From assembly GCF_004766055.1 (NCBI RefSeq), contig NZ_SPQR01000008.1, positions 1-64,000 of the forward strand: a stretch of DNA of 64,000 nt. The letters are read 5' to 3'. Shown here piece after piece: positions 32,009 through 37,418 of the stretch. The notes below the pieces were generated by a model. That model was not told the DNA's origin. It worked only from the letters and a program-made list of their open reading frames with translations, and made no database searches. Position numbers and translations under genes: made by a program. How positions within the stretch are numbered: the first letter of the stretch is position 1; every line of letters starts with the position of its first letter. This DNA is from Desulfosporosinus sp. Sb-LF (GTDB lineage Bacteria > Bacillota > Desulfitobacteriia > Desulfitobacteriales > Desulfitobacteriaceae).

Positions 32009-34687
32009 GTGGATTTTTTTCAGAAAGAGGCCAATGAAGTTATTGCGGAATTAACTAGCAACGAAGAGATGGGATTAGCTACCTCTGAAGTTGAAGCCAG
32101 AACCCTTCGCTATGGGAAAAACAGCTTTACCCCCAAAGAAAAAGAAAGCATTTTAGTAAAGATATTCGACAACTTAAAAGAACCTCTGATTGTCATTCTT
32201 TTGATTTCTGGGTTGATATCATTGGCAATGGGTCATATTCCAGATGGCATCGGGATTTTTGTGGCTGTCTTAATTGCCACATCGATTGCTGTTATTCAAG
32301 AGGGTAAGTCGGATAAAGCCTTTGAAGCATTATCAAAGTTAAGTGATGATGTTCAGGTTAAAGTGGTGAGAGATCGCCAAATTGTTTATGTAGCACAAAG
32401 CGACCTGACACTGGGGGATATTATACATTTGGAAACGGGGGATAAGGTTCCTGCTGACGCGAGGATCGTGCATTCTTCCAATCTGGAGATTGACGAATCC
32501 ATGCTTACGGGAGAAGCTGAAGCTGTTTCCAAACGATCCAACAAAATCGAACGAGATGATTGCCCCTTGGCAGAACGAAAGAATATGCTTTACTCTGGAA
32601 CCATGGTAATTGAAGGAAGGGTCATAGCTATTGTAACTGGCATTGGCGATGCGACTGAAATGGGTAAAATAGCGAATGAACTCAAAGAAGAAACCACATC
32701 TCAAACCCCGCTTCAACAAAAGTTAGCTGATCTTGGCAAACGAATTTCTATTATTGGATCGATTGTGGCAGCTGGTATCTTTGTTTTCGAGTTGTTCAAC
32801 ATGTATAGGGCTGGCATTCTTGTCTTTAATAATCTCGGAGCGGCCCTTCCTGGGATAAAAGATGCCTTTATTACGTCCGTGGCGCTGATTGTTGCGGCTG
32901 TTCCAGAAGGATTGCCAACAATGGTTGCCATTACCTTAGCTTTCAATATGCAAAAAATGGCTAAGAACAATGCCTTAGTTCGCAAGCTTATTGCGTGTGA
33001 AACCATAGGCTCTGTGAATGTCATATGTTCTGATAAAACAGGAACGTTGACGGAAAACAGGATGACCGTTGTTGACGTTTGGTGTGATGGGAAGCTGGTT
33101 CCAGTCGATAAGTTGCACCGTGATGAAATGCTGGAGAATTTCTGTGTCAACTCGACAGCGGATATCTCGAAATATGACGATGGTTTCGAATTTCTTGGTA
33201 ATCCCACAGAATGCTCTCTGCTAGTCTGTGCGGAAAAGAACAAGATCAACTATCTTCATTACCGAAAAAAGGTTGGAGATCCTGTATGTGAATACAATTT
33301 TACTTCGGCAAGAAAAATGATGTCAACTGCTTATTCCATGGAGAAAGGCTATAGACTCTATACAAAGGGTTCTCCTGAAAAAGTGTTGAATATTTGTGAT
33401 CGGTTACTTTTCGAAGGATCGATTATTCCGATGACCCAGGAGCATAAGAATGCCATTGAAGAATCGATAACGAAGCTACAGGACAATGCCAGGCGAGTAC
33501 TTGCGTTTGCCTTCGATGATTTTAGTGCTGAGCCTCAATGGGAAGATATCTATAACGTGGAGAAAGGTCTTGTATTTACAGGGTTTGTAGGGATCGAAGA
33601 TCCTTTGCGAATGGATGTGAAAGAAGCTATTGATCAATGTCGACAAGCTGGTATTACGGTTAAAATTCTAACAGGGGACAACATTAATACAGCCAGAGCT
33701 ATTGCCAATCAACTCGGAATTGTTAAGAAGGACTCTTTAGTGCTCGAAGTTACGGATATCGATAGCATGAGTGACCAAGAGTTGAAGAGTAAACTCGATA
33801 GAATTGTGGTTATCGCACGGTCAAATCCTACTGCTAAAATGAGAGTTGTAAAACTCCTGAAGGAAAAAAATGATTCAGTGGTTGTAACGGGTGATGGTAT
33901 TAATGACGCACCTGCCTTGAAAGCAGCGGATGTCGGGGTTGCAATGGGGATTGCGGGAACTGAAGTATCCAAGGAAGCGGCAGATATTGTCCTATTAGAC
34001 GACTCCTTTTCTACGATTGTTAAAGCGATTAAGTGGGGAAGAGGAATTTATGAGAACTTCCAACGATTTATTCAGTTTCAGCTAACGGTGAACGTCGTAG
34101 CTTTTCTAACTGTTATACTAGCGGAAGTCATGGGGTACAAAATGCCCTTTACCACCTTACAATTGTTATGGGTCAACATTATCATGGACGGACCGCCGGC
34201 GTTAACGTTGGGGTTAGAACCACCGAGAGAGCATTTGCTTGACAAACAGCCCATTAAAAGAAATGCATCTATTGTTACGAAGGACATGCTATTTAAGATT
34301 GTTTCCAACGGTATGTTCATTGTTACAGCCTTGTTATTGATCATGAAAACTCAAGTTCTTGGAGGTACGGAAACACAACAATCAACGATCGTGTTCACTT
34401 CGTTTGTGCTGTTTCAGCTATGGAATGCGTTCAACAGTAGAGAGTTCGGAGTGACAAGTATATTTGCCAACATTCTAAAAAATAAGGCCATGGTTGGGAT
34501 CGTGTTTCTGACATTCCTAATTCAGGTCTTAGTCACACAGTTTGGAGGAAGCGTCTTCAAAACTGTTCCGCTTGAAGTAGCTTTGTGGCTTAAGATGATT
34601 GGATTCACGTTTAGTGTCGTGGTCTTTAGCGAAGTGATAAAGCTCGTAACGAGGGGTATTCGAGCAATCACTGCTGACGCTCAATAA
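32009..34687 (+). CDS. P-type Ca2+/Mn2+ ATPase
   Basis: 892 residues, type II P-ATPase. Motifs: N-terminal cation ATPase region, TGEAEAV, the membrane motif AAVPEGLPTM, the phosphorylation loop SDKTGTLTEN, TGDGINDAPALKAADVG and, in helix 6, NIIMDGPPALTLGLEP. The MDGPPA form is like secretory-pathway/PMR1 pumps, which carry Ca2+ and Mn2+. It exports the ion from the cytosol. GTG 32009 follows AAAGGAGG. The Mn2+ riboswitch upstream argues for Mn2+ as a main substrate. Confidence 0.93.
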   Translation: MDFFQKEANEVIAELTSNEEMGLATSEVEARTLRYGKNSFTPKEKESILVKIFDNLKEPLIVILLISGLISLAMGHIPDGIGIFVAVLIATSIAVIQEGKSDKAFEALSKLSDDVQVKVVRDRQIVYVAQSDLTLGDIIHLETGDKVPADARIVHSSNLEIDESMLTGEAEAVSKRSNKIERDDCPLAERKNMLYSGTMVIEGRVIAIVTGIGDATEMGKIANELKEETTSQTPLQQKLADLGKRISIIGSIVAAGIFVFELFNMYRAGILVFNNLGAALPGIKDAFITSVALIVAAVPEGLPTMVAITLAFNMQKMAKNNALVRKLIACETIGSVNVICSDKTGTLTENRMTVVDVWCDGKLVPVDKLHRDEMLENFCVNSTADISKYDDGFEFLGNPTECSLLVCAEKNKINYLHYRKKVGDPVCEYNFTSARKMMSTAYSMEKGYRLYTKGSPEKVLNICDRLLFEGSIIPMTQEHKNAIEESITKLQDNARRVLAFAFDDFSAEPQWEDIYNVEKGLVFTGFVGIEDPLRMDVKEAIDQCRQAGITVKILTGDNINTARAIANQLGIVKKDSLVLEVTDIDSMSDQELKSKLDRIVVIARSNPTAKMRVVKLLKEKNDSVVVTGDGINDAPALKAADVGVAMGIAGTEVSKEAADIVLLDDSFSTIVKAIKWGRGIYENFQRFIQFQLTVNVVAFLTVILAEVMGYKMPFTTLQLLWVNIIMDGPPALTLGLEPPREHLLDKQPIKRNASIVTKDMLFKIVSNGMFIVTALLLIMKTQVLGGTETQQSTIVFTSFVLFQLWNAFNSREFGVTSIFANILKNKAMVGIVFLTFLIQVLVTQFGGSVFKTVPLEVALWLKMIGFTFSVVVFSEVIKLVTRGIRAITADAQ

Positions 34688-34788: not shown

Positions 34789-34994
34789 ATGTTAAGTAAT
34801 TTTGACTCGGGCATAAAATGATACAAGGCGTTACAGAAGCATAACTCTTGGGCACCGGAGGGTATTTCTTAACTTGATCTCTATGAAATAGTGGAAATAT
34901 TTTGCATGTTGGCAAAGCAGCCCTTGTACGTTATAGTTTAGGCAAGAGAGTATTCTCAACGTTCAAATTTTGATACTCGACTCGTGGAGGGTTT
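34789..34994. other. Promoter region of the polyferredoxin fusion gene
   Basis: No gene. TGGAGGG before 34995 is the SD. I see no clear FNR, Rex or sigma-54 (-24/-12) site. Confidence 0.4.
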
Positions 34995-37418
34995 ATGAAT
35001 GACGATAAAGTTTACAGTTTATCAAACGTAGAATTTCTAGCGGATTTAACAGCCGCGGAATTAACAGAACTCGCCAGTGATTTTGAATGGGAAAAGTATG
35101 ATAAGGGCTCAGAAATCATTCGGCAGGGTCAAGAACAACATTTCTTTTATATCCTAATTAAAGGCAAGGCTGACGTTACGGTTGCAAAAGAAGGGCGTTC
35201 GTGGCTTCTCAATTCTTTGGGTCCTGGAGCTACCTTTGGCGAATTTTCGTTACTCACCAGTAAATCTGCTAAAAAAACCATTGTTTGCCAAGAAGAATGC
35301 TGGGTATTAGCACTGGAAGCCGAAAGCTTTGCACGCATGCTCTTACGATGGCCGAAACTATACCTTACGTTTATTGGAAAGTTGACTGGGGAGCTGAATG
35401 AGGCAAATCTGATATTATCAGAAGCTAAATATAAGGAAATTTTGCGGTCTACTCTACAACTAACCCAGTATAAGGATAAATTTTATGGGCTGTGGGGAGG
35501 TTTGCGCACGACGAAAGAAGTCGAACGTAAACTGGAGGAACTTGCTCACCCGGAGGGACACCTGCTTTTAACGGGGGAAAGAGGTACCGGTCGCCAAATG
35601 ATGGCTTGGTACGTACATCAACGCCAATCAGGCAAATCTGCTCCTTTTGTTGTTGTAGAAGGACAACGTTTCGATCAACAGTGGCGGGATTTAATCAAGG
35701 AGTCCGTGGATACCAAGGACTCCTCAGTTTTGTATAACTCTAATCTCTTCGATATAGCTGAGGGTGGAACGTTGTTCATACGGGAAATAAACCTTATCTC
35801 TCCCCATACCCAGCATAAATTAGCCCAAGCCTTAAACCTTCAGAAAAACAAATGTTTTGTCATCGGAAGTTTACCGGCGGAACCTGACGATTTAGGGCGA
35901 ATTATCATTCCCGAACTCCGGGAATGTTTTGCCCATACTTACGAAATTACACCCTTGCGTGAGCGTAAACGGGATATCCCAATCCTTGCGCAAGGATTTT
36001 TGGAGAAACTAGCTCAGAAGAACCATCGGAATGTTCCCACTCTGAATAAGGAAGCGACCCAGTTATTACTCTCTCATCATTACCAGCAAGGAAATGTTTC
36101 GGAGTTAATACAAGTCATCGAAAGGGCCTTCTATATTGCGGATCAGGATGTAATTGGGCTAGAACAGATCTTTTTTGGTCCAACATCAGAAAAAAGCGGC
36201 CATACGATTAACCTTCTAGCGTGGCCTAAGGTAGAAAAAGTATTAAAGAATGGAGCATTTATCGCGTGGACACGTCGGGTAACGATTGTTGGTTTTAGCG
36301 CACTTGTCTTGTTATTGCTTTTATCTCCCGAAATTGCAGTTAGAACCAAGATTTTCACTTTAGTTTGGGGTTTGTGGTGGCCGGCACTTGCTATTATTTC
36401 TCCTTTCTTAGGAAGACTGTGGTGTACGGTCTGTCCGTTTTCTTCGATTATGGATTTTGTGCAAAAAAGGTTTCATAAGAACCGCCCAATTCCGAAGTTT
36501 ATTATGAAATACGATTTTCTCATAATTAGTTTTCTGTTTCTCCTGATTTTTTGGATAGAAGTGTTTACTAACATGCGTTCCAGTCCCAGCTATACGGTTA
36601 TTTTATTAATTTCTATTCAGGTCACTGCGATTTTAGTTGGCATTACCTATCCCCGACATACTTGGTGTCGGCACTTTTGCCCTTTGGGGGGATTTATTGG
36701 GACTGCCTCTATAGGTTCGATGCTGGAGGTCCGAGCGGATGCTACCGTTTGCCTGAATAAGTGCACGACCTTTGACTGCTATGTCGGCAAAGGGAATGTC
36801 CCAGGCTGTCCAATGTCTCAACATCTGCCATACTTAGATAATAATTTAGATTGTAAATTATGCTTCAACTGTGTGCGGAATTGTCCGAATGGTTCTGTGC
36901 AAGTTAATTTAAGGTTCGCTGGGCGAGAGGTATGGCATTTGGTCCGAGTTAACCAGGGATATGCCTTCTTTATCGGGGTGATGTTGGCCATTTTAATTCC
37001 TCTTAACTACTTCGAACCGCTCCAAGGAATTTGGCCTTCCACTGTTTGGAAACTATGGTTTAGTCTTTTTTATTGGGCCTCTGCCTTACTTGGGGGAACG
37101 CTCGCTTGGTTGATCGCTAAACCCTTTAAAACAAAAGCCGCTTCACTACGGGTCAAGTTAATTTTTGCATTAACTCCGTTAGTCCTTGCAGGACATATTA
37201 TGTATCAAGTGGCGTTTATCCCTGGTGTTCATTCCCTCTTTCTTGGAATAGGTTACGTAACGTCGTCTGGTCTTCTATCCTTGAATATTCCCTTCACATC
37301 TATGGCTAAAGGAATTGCCGCTGCGTTCGGTTTGGTGTTAACCGGGATAACTGTGGCTATCGTTTTGCTCCGCACGAAGAAGAAACGTGCGACTCGCCTG
37401 AAGTTGGAAAGAGCTTGA
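34995..37418 (+). CDS. cNMP-type sensor / degenerate AAA+ / membrane polyferredoxin fusion
   Basis: 807 residues in three parts. Residues 10-125 are a CRP/FNR-type cyclic-nucleotide-binding fold (GSEIIRQGQEQHFFYILIKG, GATFGEFSLL). Residues 170-395 follow the sigma-54 activator AAA+ pattern, but the ATP site is damaged: Walker A is GERGTGR (194-200, Arg for Lys), the GAFTGA loop is missing, and Walker B is GGTLFIREI (257-265, Arg for Asp). ITPLRERKRDIP is kept. No Fis-type HTH follows. Instead residues 428-795 are a multi-helix membrane unit with iron-sulfur motifs of the NapH/NosR kind: CTVCP (477), CRHFCP (558), C586/C590/C595/C605 and CKLCFNCVRNCP (620-630). It is probably a ligand-gated membrane electron-transfer protein. 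No DNA binding is expected. Function not established. Confidence 0.85.
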   Translation: MNDDKVYSLSNVEFLADLTAAELTELASDFEWEKYDKGSEIIRQGQEQHFFYILIKGKADVTVAKEGRSWLLNSLGPGATFGEFSLLTSKSAKKTIVCQEECWVLALEAESFARMLLRWPKLYLTFIGKLTGELNEANLILSEAKYKEILRSTLQLTQYKDKFYGLWGGLRTTKEVERKLEELAHPEGHLLLTGERGTGRQMMAWYVHQRQSGKSAPFVVVEGQRFDQQWRDLIKESVDTKDSSVLYNSNLFDIAEGGTLFIREINLISPHTQHKLAQALNLQKNKCFVIGSLPAEPDDLGRIIIPELRECFAHTYEITPLRERKRDIPILAQGFLEKLAQKNHRNVPTLNKEATQLLLSHHYQQGNVSELIQVIERAFYIADQDVIGLEQIFFGPTSEKSGHTINLLAWPKVEKVLKNGAFIAWTRRVTIVGFSALVLLLLLSPEIAVRTKIFTLVWGLWWPALAIISPFLGRLWCTVCPFSSIMDFVQKRFHKNRPIPKFIMKYDFLIISFLFLLIFWIEVFTNMRSSPSYTVILLISIQVTAILVGITYPRHTWCRHFCPLGGFIGTASIGSMLEVRADATVCLNKCTTFDCYVGKGNVPGCPMSQHLPYLDNNLDCKLCFNCVRNCPNGSVQVNLRFAGREVWHLVRVNQGYAFFIGVMLAILIPLNYFEPLQGIWPSTVWKLWFSLFYWASALLGGTLAWLIAKPFKTKAASLRVKLIFALTPLVLAGHIMYQVAFIPGVHSLFLGIGYVTSSGLLSLNIPFTSMAKGIAAAFGLVLTGITVAIVLLRTKKKRATRLKLERA

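Follow-up and report, generated by a model that had tools for sequence, protein, structure and literature searches.

A CRP-fold sensor and a degenerate sigma54-type AAA+ domain fused to a NapH-like membrane iron-sulfur unit in Desulfosporosinus and distant bacteria

In the sulfate reducer Desulfosporosinus sp. Sb-LF, one uninterrupted frame encoding 807 amino acids (aa) was found at positions 34995-37418 (forward strand) of a 64,000-nucleotide stretch of contig NZ_SPQR01000008.1 (the window). In a Pfam scan of this protein, every match above the gathering cut-off belonged to one of four families: cNMP_binding, Sigma54_activat, AAA_lid_14 and Fer4_5. An initial annotation of the sequence had proposed that a single protein here joins a cNMP-type sensor, a sigma54-type AAA+ domain and a membrane polyferredoxin, and the four matches within one frame bear this out. 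An AlphaFold2 model of the whole protein, built with 74 family sequences, had a mean predicted local distance difference test (pLDDT) value of 88.0 and a predicted template modelling score (pTM) of 0.68. The features of the gene are collected in table 1.

Table 1. Features of the 807-aa gene, with positions in the window
Feature	Position	Strand	Basis
Promoter match, sigma70-type, TTGGCA-17-TATAGT	34909..34937	+	10/12 consensus positions
Ribosome-binding site GGAGGG	34986..34991	+	Read directly; kept in alignment of Desulfosporosinus upstream regions
Whole gene, 807 aa: CRP-fold sensor, pseudo-AAA+ and membrane polyferredoxin	34995..37418	+	Single open reading frame, ATG start, Pfam, AlphaFold2
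cNMP_binding domain, residues 33-116	35091..35342	+	Pfam PF00027, 66.6 bits
Long helix, residues 120-154, sensor-to-AAA+ connector	35352..35456	+	Secondary structure of AlphaFold2 model
Sigma54-activator-type AAA+ domain and lid, residues 166-400, catalytically degenerate	35490..36194	+	Pfam; fold match
Degenerate Walker A GERGTGR, Lys to Arg200	35574..35594	+	Alignment of 101 members
Degenerate Walker B GGTLFIREI, Asp to Arg263, Glu264 kept	35763..35789	+	Alignment of 101 members
Degenerate sensor II GNVSEL, Arg to Ser369	36090..36107	+	Alignment of 101 members
NapH-like membrane unit, residues 420-800, about eight predicted transmembrane helices	36252..37394	+	Hydropathy and positive-inside pattern; model
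CxxCP motif, Cys477/Cys480	36423..36437	+	Cys in 101/101 members
CxxxCP motif, Cys558/Cys562	36666..36683	+	Cys in 101/101 members
Four-Cys set 586/590/595/605, probable [4Fe-4S] site	36750..36809	+	Cys in 101, 101, 101 and 100 of 101 members
Ferredoxin-type CxxCxxCxxxC 620/623/626/630, probable [4Fe-4S] site	36852..36884	+	Cys in 100/101 members each

The central part of the protein matches Sigma54_activat (PF00158, residues 172-291, 43.7 bits) and AAA_lid_14 (PF25601, residues 322-392, 60.5 bits). Model residues 157-395 were superposed on NtrC1 (1ny5_B) with a Z score of 21.4 and a root-mean-square deviation (rmsd) of 3.6 over 235 residues, and the atypical activator VpsR was also among the nearest folds (Z 21.0, rmsd 3.2, 226 residues). 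Motif roles were checked against an article on enhancer-binding proteins (PMC7175178). The initial annotation had claimed that the Walker A lysine is replaced by arginine, that the GAFTGA loop is absent and that there is no DNA-binding domain, and all three statements hold: residue 200 is Arg, a motif reading against activators of the same genome revealed neither a GAFTGA loop nor an arginine finger, and the Pfam scan returned no helix-turn-helix (HTH) family up to an E-value of 1. Its statement that the Walker B acid is Arg is right for the aspartate, whereas the second acid of the motif is still present (table 1). As a control, all 20 listed AAA-region paralogues of the same genome, taken as stretches, were inspected. 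Each retains the Walker A Lys, the Walker B Asp-Glu pair, the arginine finger and the sensor II Arg, as well as a G-x-F-[T/S]-G-[A/G] loop, which is exactly GAFTGA in 14 and carries one or two substitutions in 6.

We then aligned 101 members of the family, namely the 807-aa protein and 100 further loci. Open reading frames shorter than 650 aa were left out, as were ten duplicates or broken frames (L042, L043, L049, L051, L052, L054, L055, L140, L147 and L158). The Walker A position is occupied by Lys in 70 members, Arg in 29 and other residues in 2. The Walker B Asp is retained by 3 members, the Glu after it by 20 and the sensor II Arg by 12. No aligned member has the Walker B acidic pair, nor the loop, whether as exact GAFTGA or as relaxed G-x-F-[T/S]-G. 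Some Desulfobacterota-type members have a seemingly worn loop (GAFSFS, GALPFA), and cyanobacterial members have unrelated sequence after LFG. Of the 29 members with Arg in Walker A, 20 also have Arg at the Walker B position, 5 have Gln, 2 have Lys and 2 have Tyr. Judged from these motifs, the AAA+ motor of the 807-aa protein and of its family is dead. Homologues with an intact AAA+ site and a separate membrane gene, which the initial annotation had named as evidence for a mere local fusion, did not appear: the acidic pair is missing throughout, and the separate membrane genes that exist group apart (see below). Genomes of the genus Thermincola hold two paralogues, one with Arg (L152, L036) and one with Lys (L153, L154, L044) in Walker A; both kinds are devoid of the Walker B Asp.

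Such degeneracy might mean that the protein is an ordinary electron carrier with a decaying, functionless N-terminal relic. It would agree with the differences in motor motifs among clades, with the worn loops of some Desulfobacterota members and with the loss of the cNMP domain in some cyanobacterial ones. However, the AAA+ region is present in all 101 aligned members, and its conservation within the genus exceeds that of the cNMP and C-terminal membrane parts: among 17 Desulfosporosinus sequences the AAA+ region has a mean pairwise identity of 0.82, compared with 0.86 in the iron-sulfur (Fe-S) core, 0.74 in the cNMP domain and 0.70 in the C-terminal membrane part (0.90 in the short linker 141-165 and 0.65 in the stretch 401-454). 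Moreover, Arg200 is found in 17/17 and Arg263 in 16/17 of these sequences, which looks like a fixed replacement within the genus and not like random decay. We consider the relic explanation very improbable. Since the AAA+ domain is well conserved within the genus, it is presumably kept for something other than a motor role.

The C-terminal part contains a Fer4_5 domain (PF12801, residues 455-500, 36.2 bits against a cut-off of 22, in two stretches), and a model of residues 403-807 alone reached a pLDDT of 90.3 and a pTM of 0.88. Twelve cysteines are nearly invariant, seven positions being Cys in 101/101 and five in 100/101 members. Hydropathy and the positive-inside pattern suggest that the Cys motifs lie on the cytoplasmic side of the membrane. 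These four motifs had been read as at least four Cys clusters; by analogy with NosR, for which no more than eight Fe per protein are given (PMC5928378), they probably correspond to two [4Fe-4S] clusters rather than four. Similarly, the proposed likeness to NapH and NosR stands as regards the Fer4_5 domain and the Cys motifs but not the flavin domain of NosR: the Pfam scan of the 807-aa protein gave no match to the FMN_bind family, the covalent flavin mononucleotide (FMN) domain of NosR/RdhC type being absent. Residues 403-807 also score far below the cut-offs of the NapH models TIGR02163 and NF007013 (34.4 and 36.9 bits vs 213.05 and 234). According to one article, NapH and NosR share a membrane module, the membrane segments of NapH have been proposed to take electrons from quinols by quinol oxidation, and NosR, first named a regulator, was later tied to electron transfer and enzyme activation (PMC5928378). 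NapH-like proteins have also been associated with several oxidoreductases (PMC8238504). By analogy with these two proteins, the C-terminal unit of the 807-aa protein may move electrons.

At the N-terminus, model residues 4-145 closely resemble the CRP-family protein GlxR (3r6s_C; Z 21.2, rmsd 1.7, 142 residues). We located the phosphate cassette by our own motif reading, guided by what we take to be the usual cyclic-nucleotide pattern. In the 807-aa protein Glu83 is kept and the Arg position is Ala92. Because this Arg is replaced, ordinary binding of cAMP or another classical cyclic nucleotide is unlikely, judging from the sequence. The Arg is missing in 87/101 aligned members, and Glu83 and Arg92 occur together in 14/101. 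Thus, the claim of a cNMP-type sensor is right about the CRP fold, although the usual phosphate-binding Arg is missing.

Other members differ in this N-terminal region. Nine further fused members all have cNMP, Sigma54_activat and lid matches over the cut-off; Fer4_5 is over the cut-off in seven of them, just under it in L068 and undetected in L078. Another eight members scanned with Pfam show cNMP with one or two GAF domains (L160, L161), FHA with cNMP (L167, L168), an N-terminal extension before cNMP (L163), plain cNMP (L165) or no cNMP (L169, L172), and the AAA-like domain and membrane unit are present in all eight. The GAF and FHA additions suggest small-molecule or phosphopeptide inputs. 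Members with these additions are larger (L160:1414-5022, L161:1414-5067, L167:766-3969, L168:1488-4649). A DNA-binding domain was found in none of the 18 members scanned with Pfam (the 807-aa protein and these nine and eight others).

To determine how widespread the fused architecture is, we counted matches in several sets of genomes. They were detected in 22/29 genomes of the genus and 29/45 of the family, the host genome included; two copies are truncated (G029, G027), and 27 of the copies in the 45 family genomes are near full length. Close orthologues in named Desulfosporosinus records share 75-80% identity. Beyond the family, matches were found in 14/398 genomes of a Bacillota sample, in 61/244 genomes of a cyanobacterial sample (some of them partial) and in 12/247 genomes of a sample of the phylum of Desulfosediminicola. 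Among named genomes, at least 421 relatives were detected in 590 stretches, the best 80 of which were examined. These 80 records come from Desulfosporosinus, Thermincola and other Bacillota, Armatimonadetes, Elusimicrobia, Planctomycetota and Brocadiaceae, Desulfobulbaceae and Desulfomonile, Riflebacteria, Nitrospirae, Acidobacteria and many cyanobacteria; relatives of the fused protein are thus present in records from at least eight phyla. A single open reading frame spans the match in 74 of the 80 loci, a few of which run off the contig end. Of the other six, L055 consists of two open reading frames, and L053, L060, L065, L069 (the only Riflebacteria locus) and L089 gave no matching frame with a simple caller. 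An in-frame stop was flagged in 3 of the 27 near-full-length copies: G005 is split into two open reading frames (L140), and G010 and G034 nonetheless have frames of 802 and 813 aa (L129, L128). The 27 near-full-length copies in 45 family genomes, together with one frame in 74/80 loci, rule out a chance open reading frame, a local mis-join or a frame break, which the initial annotation had raised as possible refutations. The fusion is not local to one genome. Domain search, structure prediction and genome count, the checks recommended at the outset, all confirm the architecture. In a tree of the AAA+ region whose outgroup was only six true activators, these lie all on one side of a branch with support 99.

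The distribution was compared with that of sigma54 (PF04552). The factor was detected in 5/5 non-cyanobacterial carriers tested, the host genome included, and in 0/14 cyanobacterial carriers in the same test. Among all 61 cyanobacterial carriers (59 in one sigma54 test, G439 and G450 in the other), 60 have no match over the cut-off. The exception, G578, has a partial match over the cut-off (positions 33-159 of 160, in a 207-aa frame); G459 has a match below it, and the remaining carriers have none. Cyanobacteria are described as almost always devoid of sigma54 in one study (PMC3162934) and as rarely having it, with two named exceptions, in another (PMC12316311). In the former, UniProt data are reported to point to a sigma54 activator in 20% of the species without sigma54, and many false identifications are traced to missing GAFTGA filtering (PMC3162934). 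We suggest that the fused family may account for some of these annotations.

Presence in organisms without sigma54 might also point to a membrane-tethered transcription regulator that works with the sigma70-type polymerase, like TyrR or VpsR, under redox control; activators without GAFTGA can indeed be sigma70-dependent (PMC3162934). However, none of the 18 scanned members has a DNA-binding domain, and the losses extend to the arginine finger and the Walker B Asp, making such a regulator improbable. TyrR and VpsR themselves retain a DNA-binding domain.

Within the phylum Cyanobacteria, 60 of the 61 carriers are among the 113/244 genomes with a NifH/ChlL-like match, and one is among the other 131. 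We presume that this match represents ChlL and marks the photosynthetic lineage; restriction of the gene to that lineage is a weak lead, the counts not being corrected for phylogeny. Another weak lead is that 29/40 genomes with nifH over the cut-off carry the gene vs 31/73 others (Fisher's exact test, P = 0.003, kinship ignored). Cyanobacterial members L169, L170, L171, L172 and L173 seem to lack the cNMP domain and to start near the AAA-like domain (confirmed with Pfam in L169 and L172), and their P-loop reads GEPGLEKD, with Gly replaced by Glu. On both cyanobacterial plasmids opened (L029:7809-11446, L030:7584-11275) the cysteine synthase gene cysK lies 3' of the gene, with psbA and petC near and, on L029, DsrE/rhodanese genes; no such rule was seen in the 11 chromosomal loci listed. 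The plasmid setting hints at a sulfide- or low-oxygen-related island.

Stand-alone Fer4_5 membrane proteins of approximately 420-660 aa also occur in the same genome and phylum (loci L194-L213 and L028), including two in the host genome. They have a related membrane unit (28-35% identity over the match) but no sensor or AAA+ part, and group apart from the fused proteins in a quick tree (20 rows, 3 changes). This tree, built from the Fe-S unit, has many weak forks and places the stand-alone groups among fused proteins, at least 2 of the 3 changes being forced by starred branches. The stand-alone genes do not resemble split forms of the fused gene. On contig C5 of the host (L028:4174-15615), two stand-alone NapH-like copies each follow a gene for a Met-rich, secreted-looking protein (the one scanned is YtkA-like), and an FtrD-like protein, ABC-type transporter genes and a thioredoxin-like gene lie between them. 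The locus looks like one for metal uptake or copper handling. Among the Bacillota relatives L206:829-2811 and L203:36-1987, one has a cupredoxin fused to the Fer4_5 unit and the other a cupredoxin gene just upstream.

Accounting for the fused protein as a metal-handling membrane reductase, which would reduce copper or iron for import or cofactor assembly when switched by a metal or stress signal, would draw on these relatives: four of the five neighbours or fused parts scanned match YtkA-like, FtrD-like or cupredoxin families (cupredoxin twice, once fused), and one has no match. No such neighbour is conserved beside the fused gene, and we judge this role improbable.

The window neighbours of the 807-aa gene encode a rubrerythrin, a P-type cation ATPase, a cupin, MscL and a pseudouridine synthase, and no reductase gene is found among the neighbours read. 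Conserved neighbours had also been suggested as a check; clustering of genes within 6 kb of 103 loci did not find any. Besides a single-linkage catch-all of 157 proteins that spans 26 loci and contains the fused family itself, no neighbour cluster is common to more than 8 loci, and the clusters shared by 4-5 Desulfobulbaceae-type loci were read as housekeeping genes. Because the preceding gene ends at 34687, the 807-aa gene is likely transcribed alone. The promoter match is in itself no proof, as 4 matches of such stringency are present in the region vs 5.6 expected by chance; a comparable -35/-10 block is seen by eye upstream of most of the 15 aligned Desulfosporosinus orthologues. A GGAAA-x-x-x-TT-like element at 34892-34904, immediately 5' of the -35 box, can be seen by eye in the majority of the aligned upstream regions and is possibly an UP element or a regulator site.

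Taken together, the initial interpretation is partly supported. The reuse of activator parts on a membrane Fe-S unit is well supported by the alignment, in which the acidic pair is uniformly missing, and by its recurrence in distant bacteria, while the binding of a small molecule and the gating of electron flow are proposals. A tentative hypothesis, which we favor while holding it somewhat short of probable, is that the 807-aa protein carries electrons at the membrane under signal control, its pseudo-AAA+ domain relaying the signal or serving as a scaffold. The NapH-like unit would pass electrons at the cytoplasmic membrane face through two putative [4Fe-4S] clusters and a pair of Cys motifs in the membrane; the quinone pool and a partner, cytoplasmic or other, are the probable ends of this path. 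The N-terminal part would be a cytosolic control module with a CRP-fold input, which in relatives appears supplemented by GAF or FHA domains, or lost. The long helix would join this input to the former activator domain, which presumably can no longer remodel sigma54; it may transmit the input, or keep subunits or a partner in contact, and thereby switch electron transfer on or off. The order from input through pseudo-AAA+ to Fe-S unit is suggested because the N-terminal domains are typical inputs and variable and the rest is fixed. Cluster content, electron partner, ligand, oligomerization and direction of control are all inferred.

Several observations weigh against a signal-controlled carrier. 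The lack of a conserved operon partner means that no electron partner can be named from the neighbourhood. Sequence search gave no solved relative of the membrane unit, and fold search with it was unconvincing (best E 0.57; best Z 5.5, rmsd 3.4, 75 residues). The missing structural match shows neither a new fold nor its lack; because the membrane model has no solved relative, the electron path through it is putative. In addition, Gly-Lys is kept at the P-loop end in 35/101 members, so that a subset of the family might bind a nucleotide but not hydrolyse it. Finally, the domain-swap argument would fit a redox sensor with a protein output as well.

Such a sensor is the main rival explanation: the membrane Fe-S unit would read the redox state of quinone or ferredoxin and reshape the pseudo-AAA+/CRP part, whereby the cytosolic part captures or releases a soluble partner, electron transfer being the input and not the output. 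There are reported parallels in cyanobacteria, in which the Fe-S proteins Hik2 and LdpA sense the plastoquinone redox state (PMC13421787); the terms AAA+, sigma-54 and cyclic nucleotide are absent from the available part of this 2026 review. A dead AAA+ domain, with VpsR among its nearest folds, is a plausible binding platform, and finding no operon partner is what a free-standing sensor would give. On the other hand, the same result means that no partner is conserved beside the gene, the N-terminal domains vary like input domains, and the YtkA-like, FtrD-like and cupredoxin genes scanned near the closest stand-alone relatives look like electron transfer. We consider a redox sensor rather unlikely.

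If the control module does gate electron flow, cytosolic signals would be coupled directly to the membrane electron pool of sulfate reducers, anammox bacteria and cyanobacteria. More doubtful is the broader idea that these proteins form an ancient class of signal-gated membrane electron carriers spread over several phyla. In this class the AAA+ domain, perhaps still a ring, would be a non-ATPase transducer through which cytosolic signals directly switch quinone-linked flow without transcription; in cyanobacteria, the plastoquinone or ferredoxin pool would then have a direct control, or a sensor, that has gone unrecognized. Genes annotated as sigma54-interacting regulators, including those of organisms that lack sigma54, may in some cases encode parts of membrane redox proteins and not gene activators. 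No paper on this architecture is among those listed by searches of the open-licence PMC literature aimed at it, at atypical activators and at the NosR/NapH background, which is not proof of absence. The conserved family supplies many orthologues for testing.

Comparison with known systems places the protein between several families. Like the sigma54 enhancer-binding proteins NtrC1, PspF and NifA, it has an AAA+ core and lid fold behind an N-terminal sensor, but it differs from them in having no Walker A Lys, Walker B Asp, GAFTGA, arginine finger, sensor II Arg or HTH, and its family is also present where sigma54 is absent. With the atypical activators without GAFTGA (TyrR, DhaR, HupR and VpsR) it shares a sigma54-type AAA+ domain that does not serve sigma54 (PMC3162934). 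It differs from them in being predicted to be membrane-bound, with Fe-S ligands and no DNA-binding domain. Those four are soluble DNA-binding regulators. The cNMP fold followed by a long helix recalls the sensors of the CRP/FNR family, from which the 807-aa protein differs in having neither an HTH nor the phosphate-cassette Arg. The likeness to NapH and NosR consists of membrane helices with two Cys-Pro motifs and two four-Cys sets, and that to NapH, NosR and RdhC of the Fer4_5 domain, the NapH models themselves matching weakly. Compared with these three, the 807-aa protein has about eight predicted helices instead of four to six, CxxCP instead of CxxxCP as its first motif, no FMN domain such as that of NosR and RdhC, and an additional cytosolic control module of 400 residues. 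We therefore class it with the Fer4_5/NapH-type membrane electron carriers and not with the sigma54 activators.

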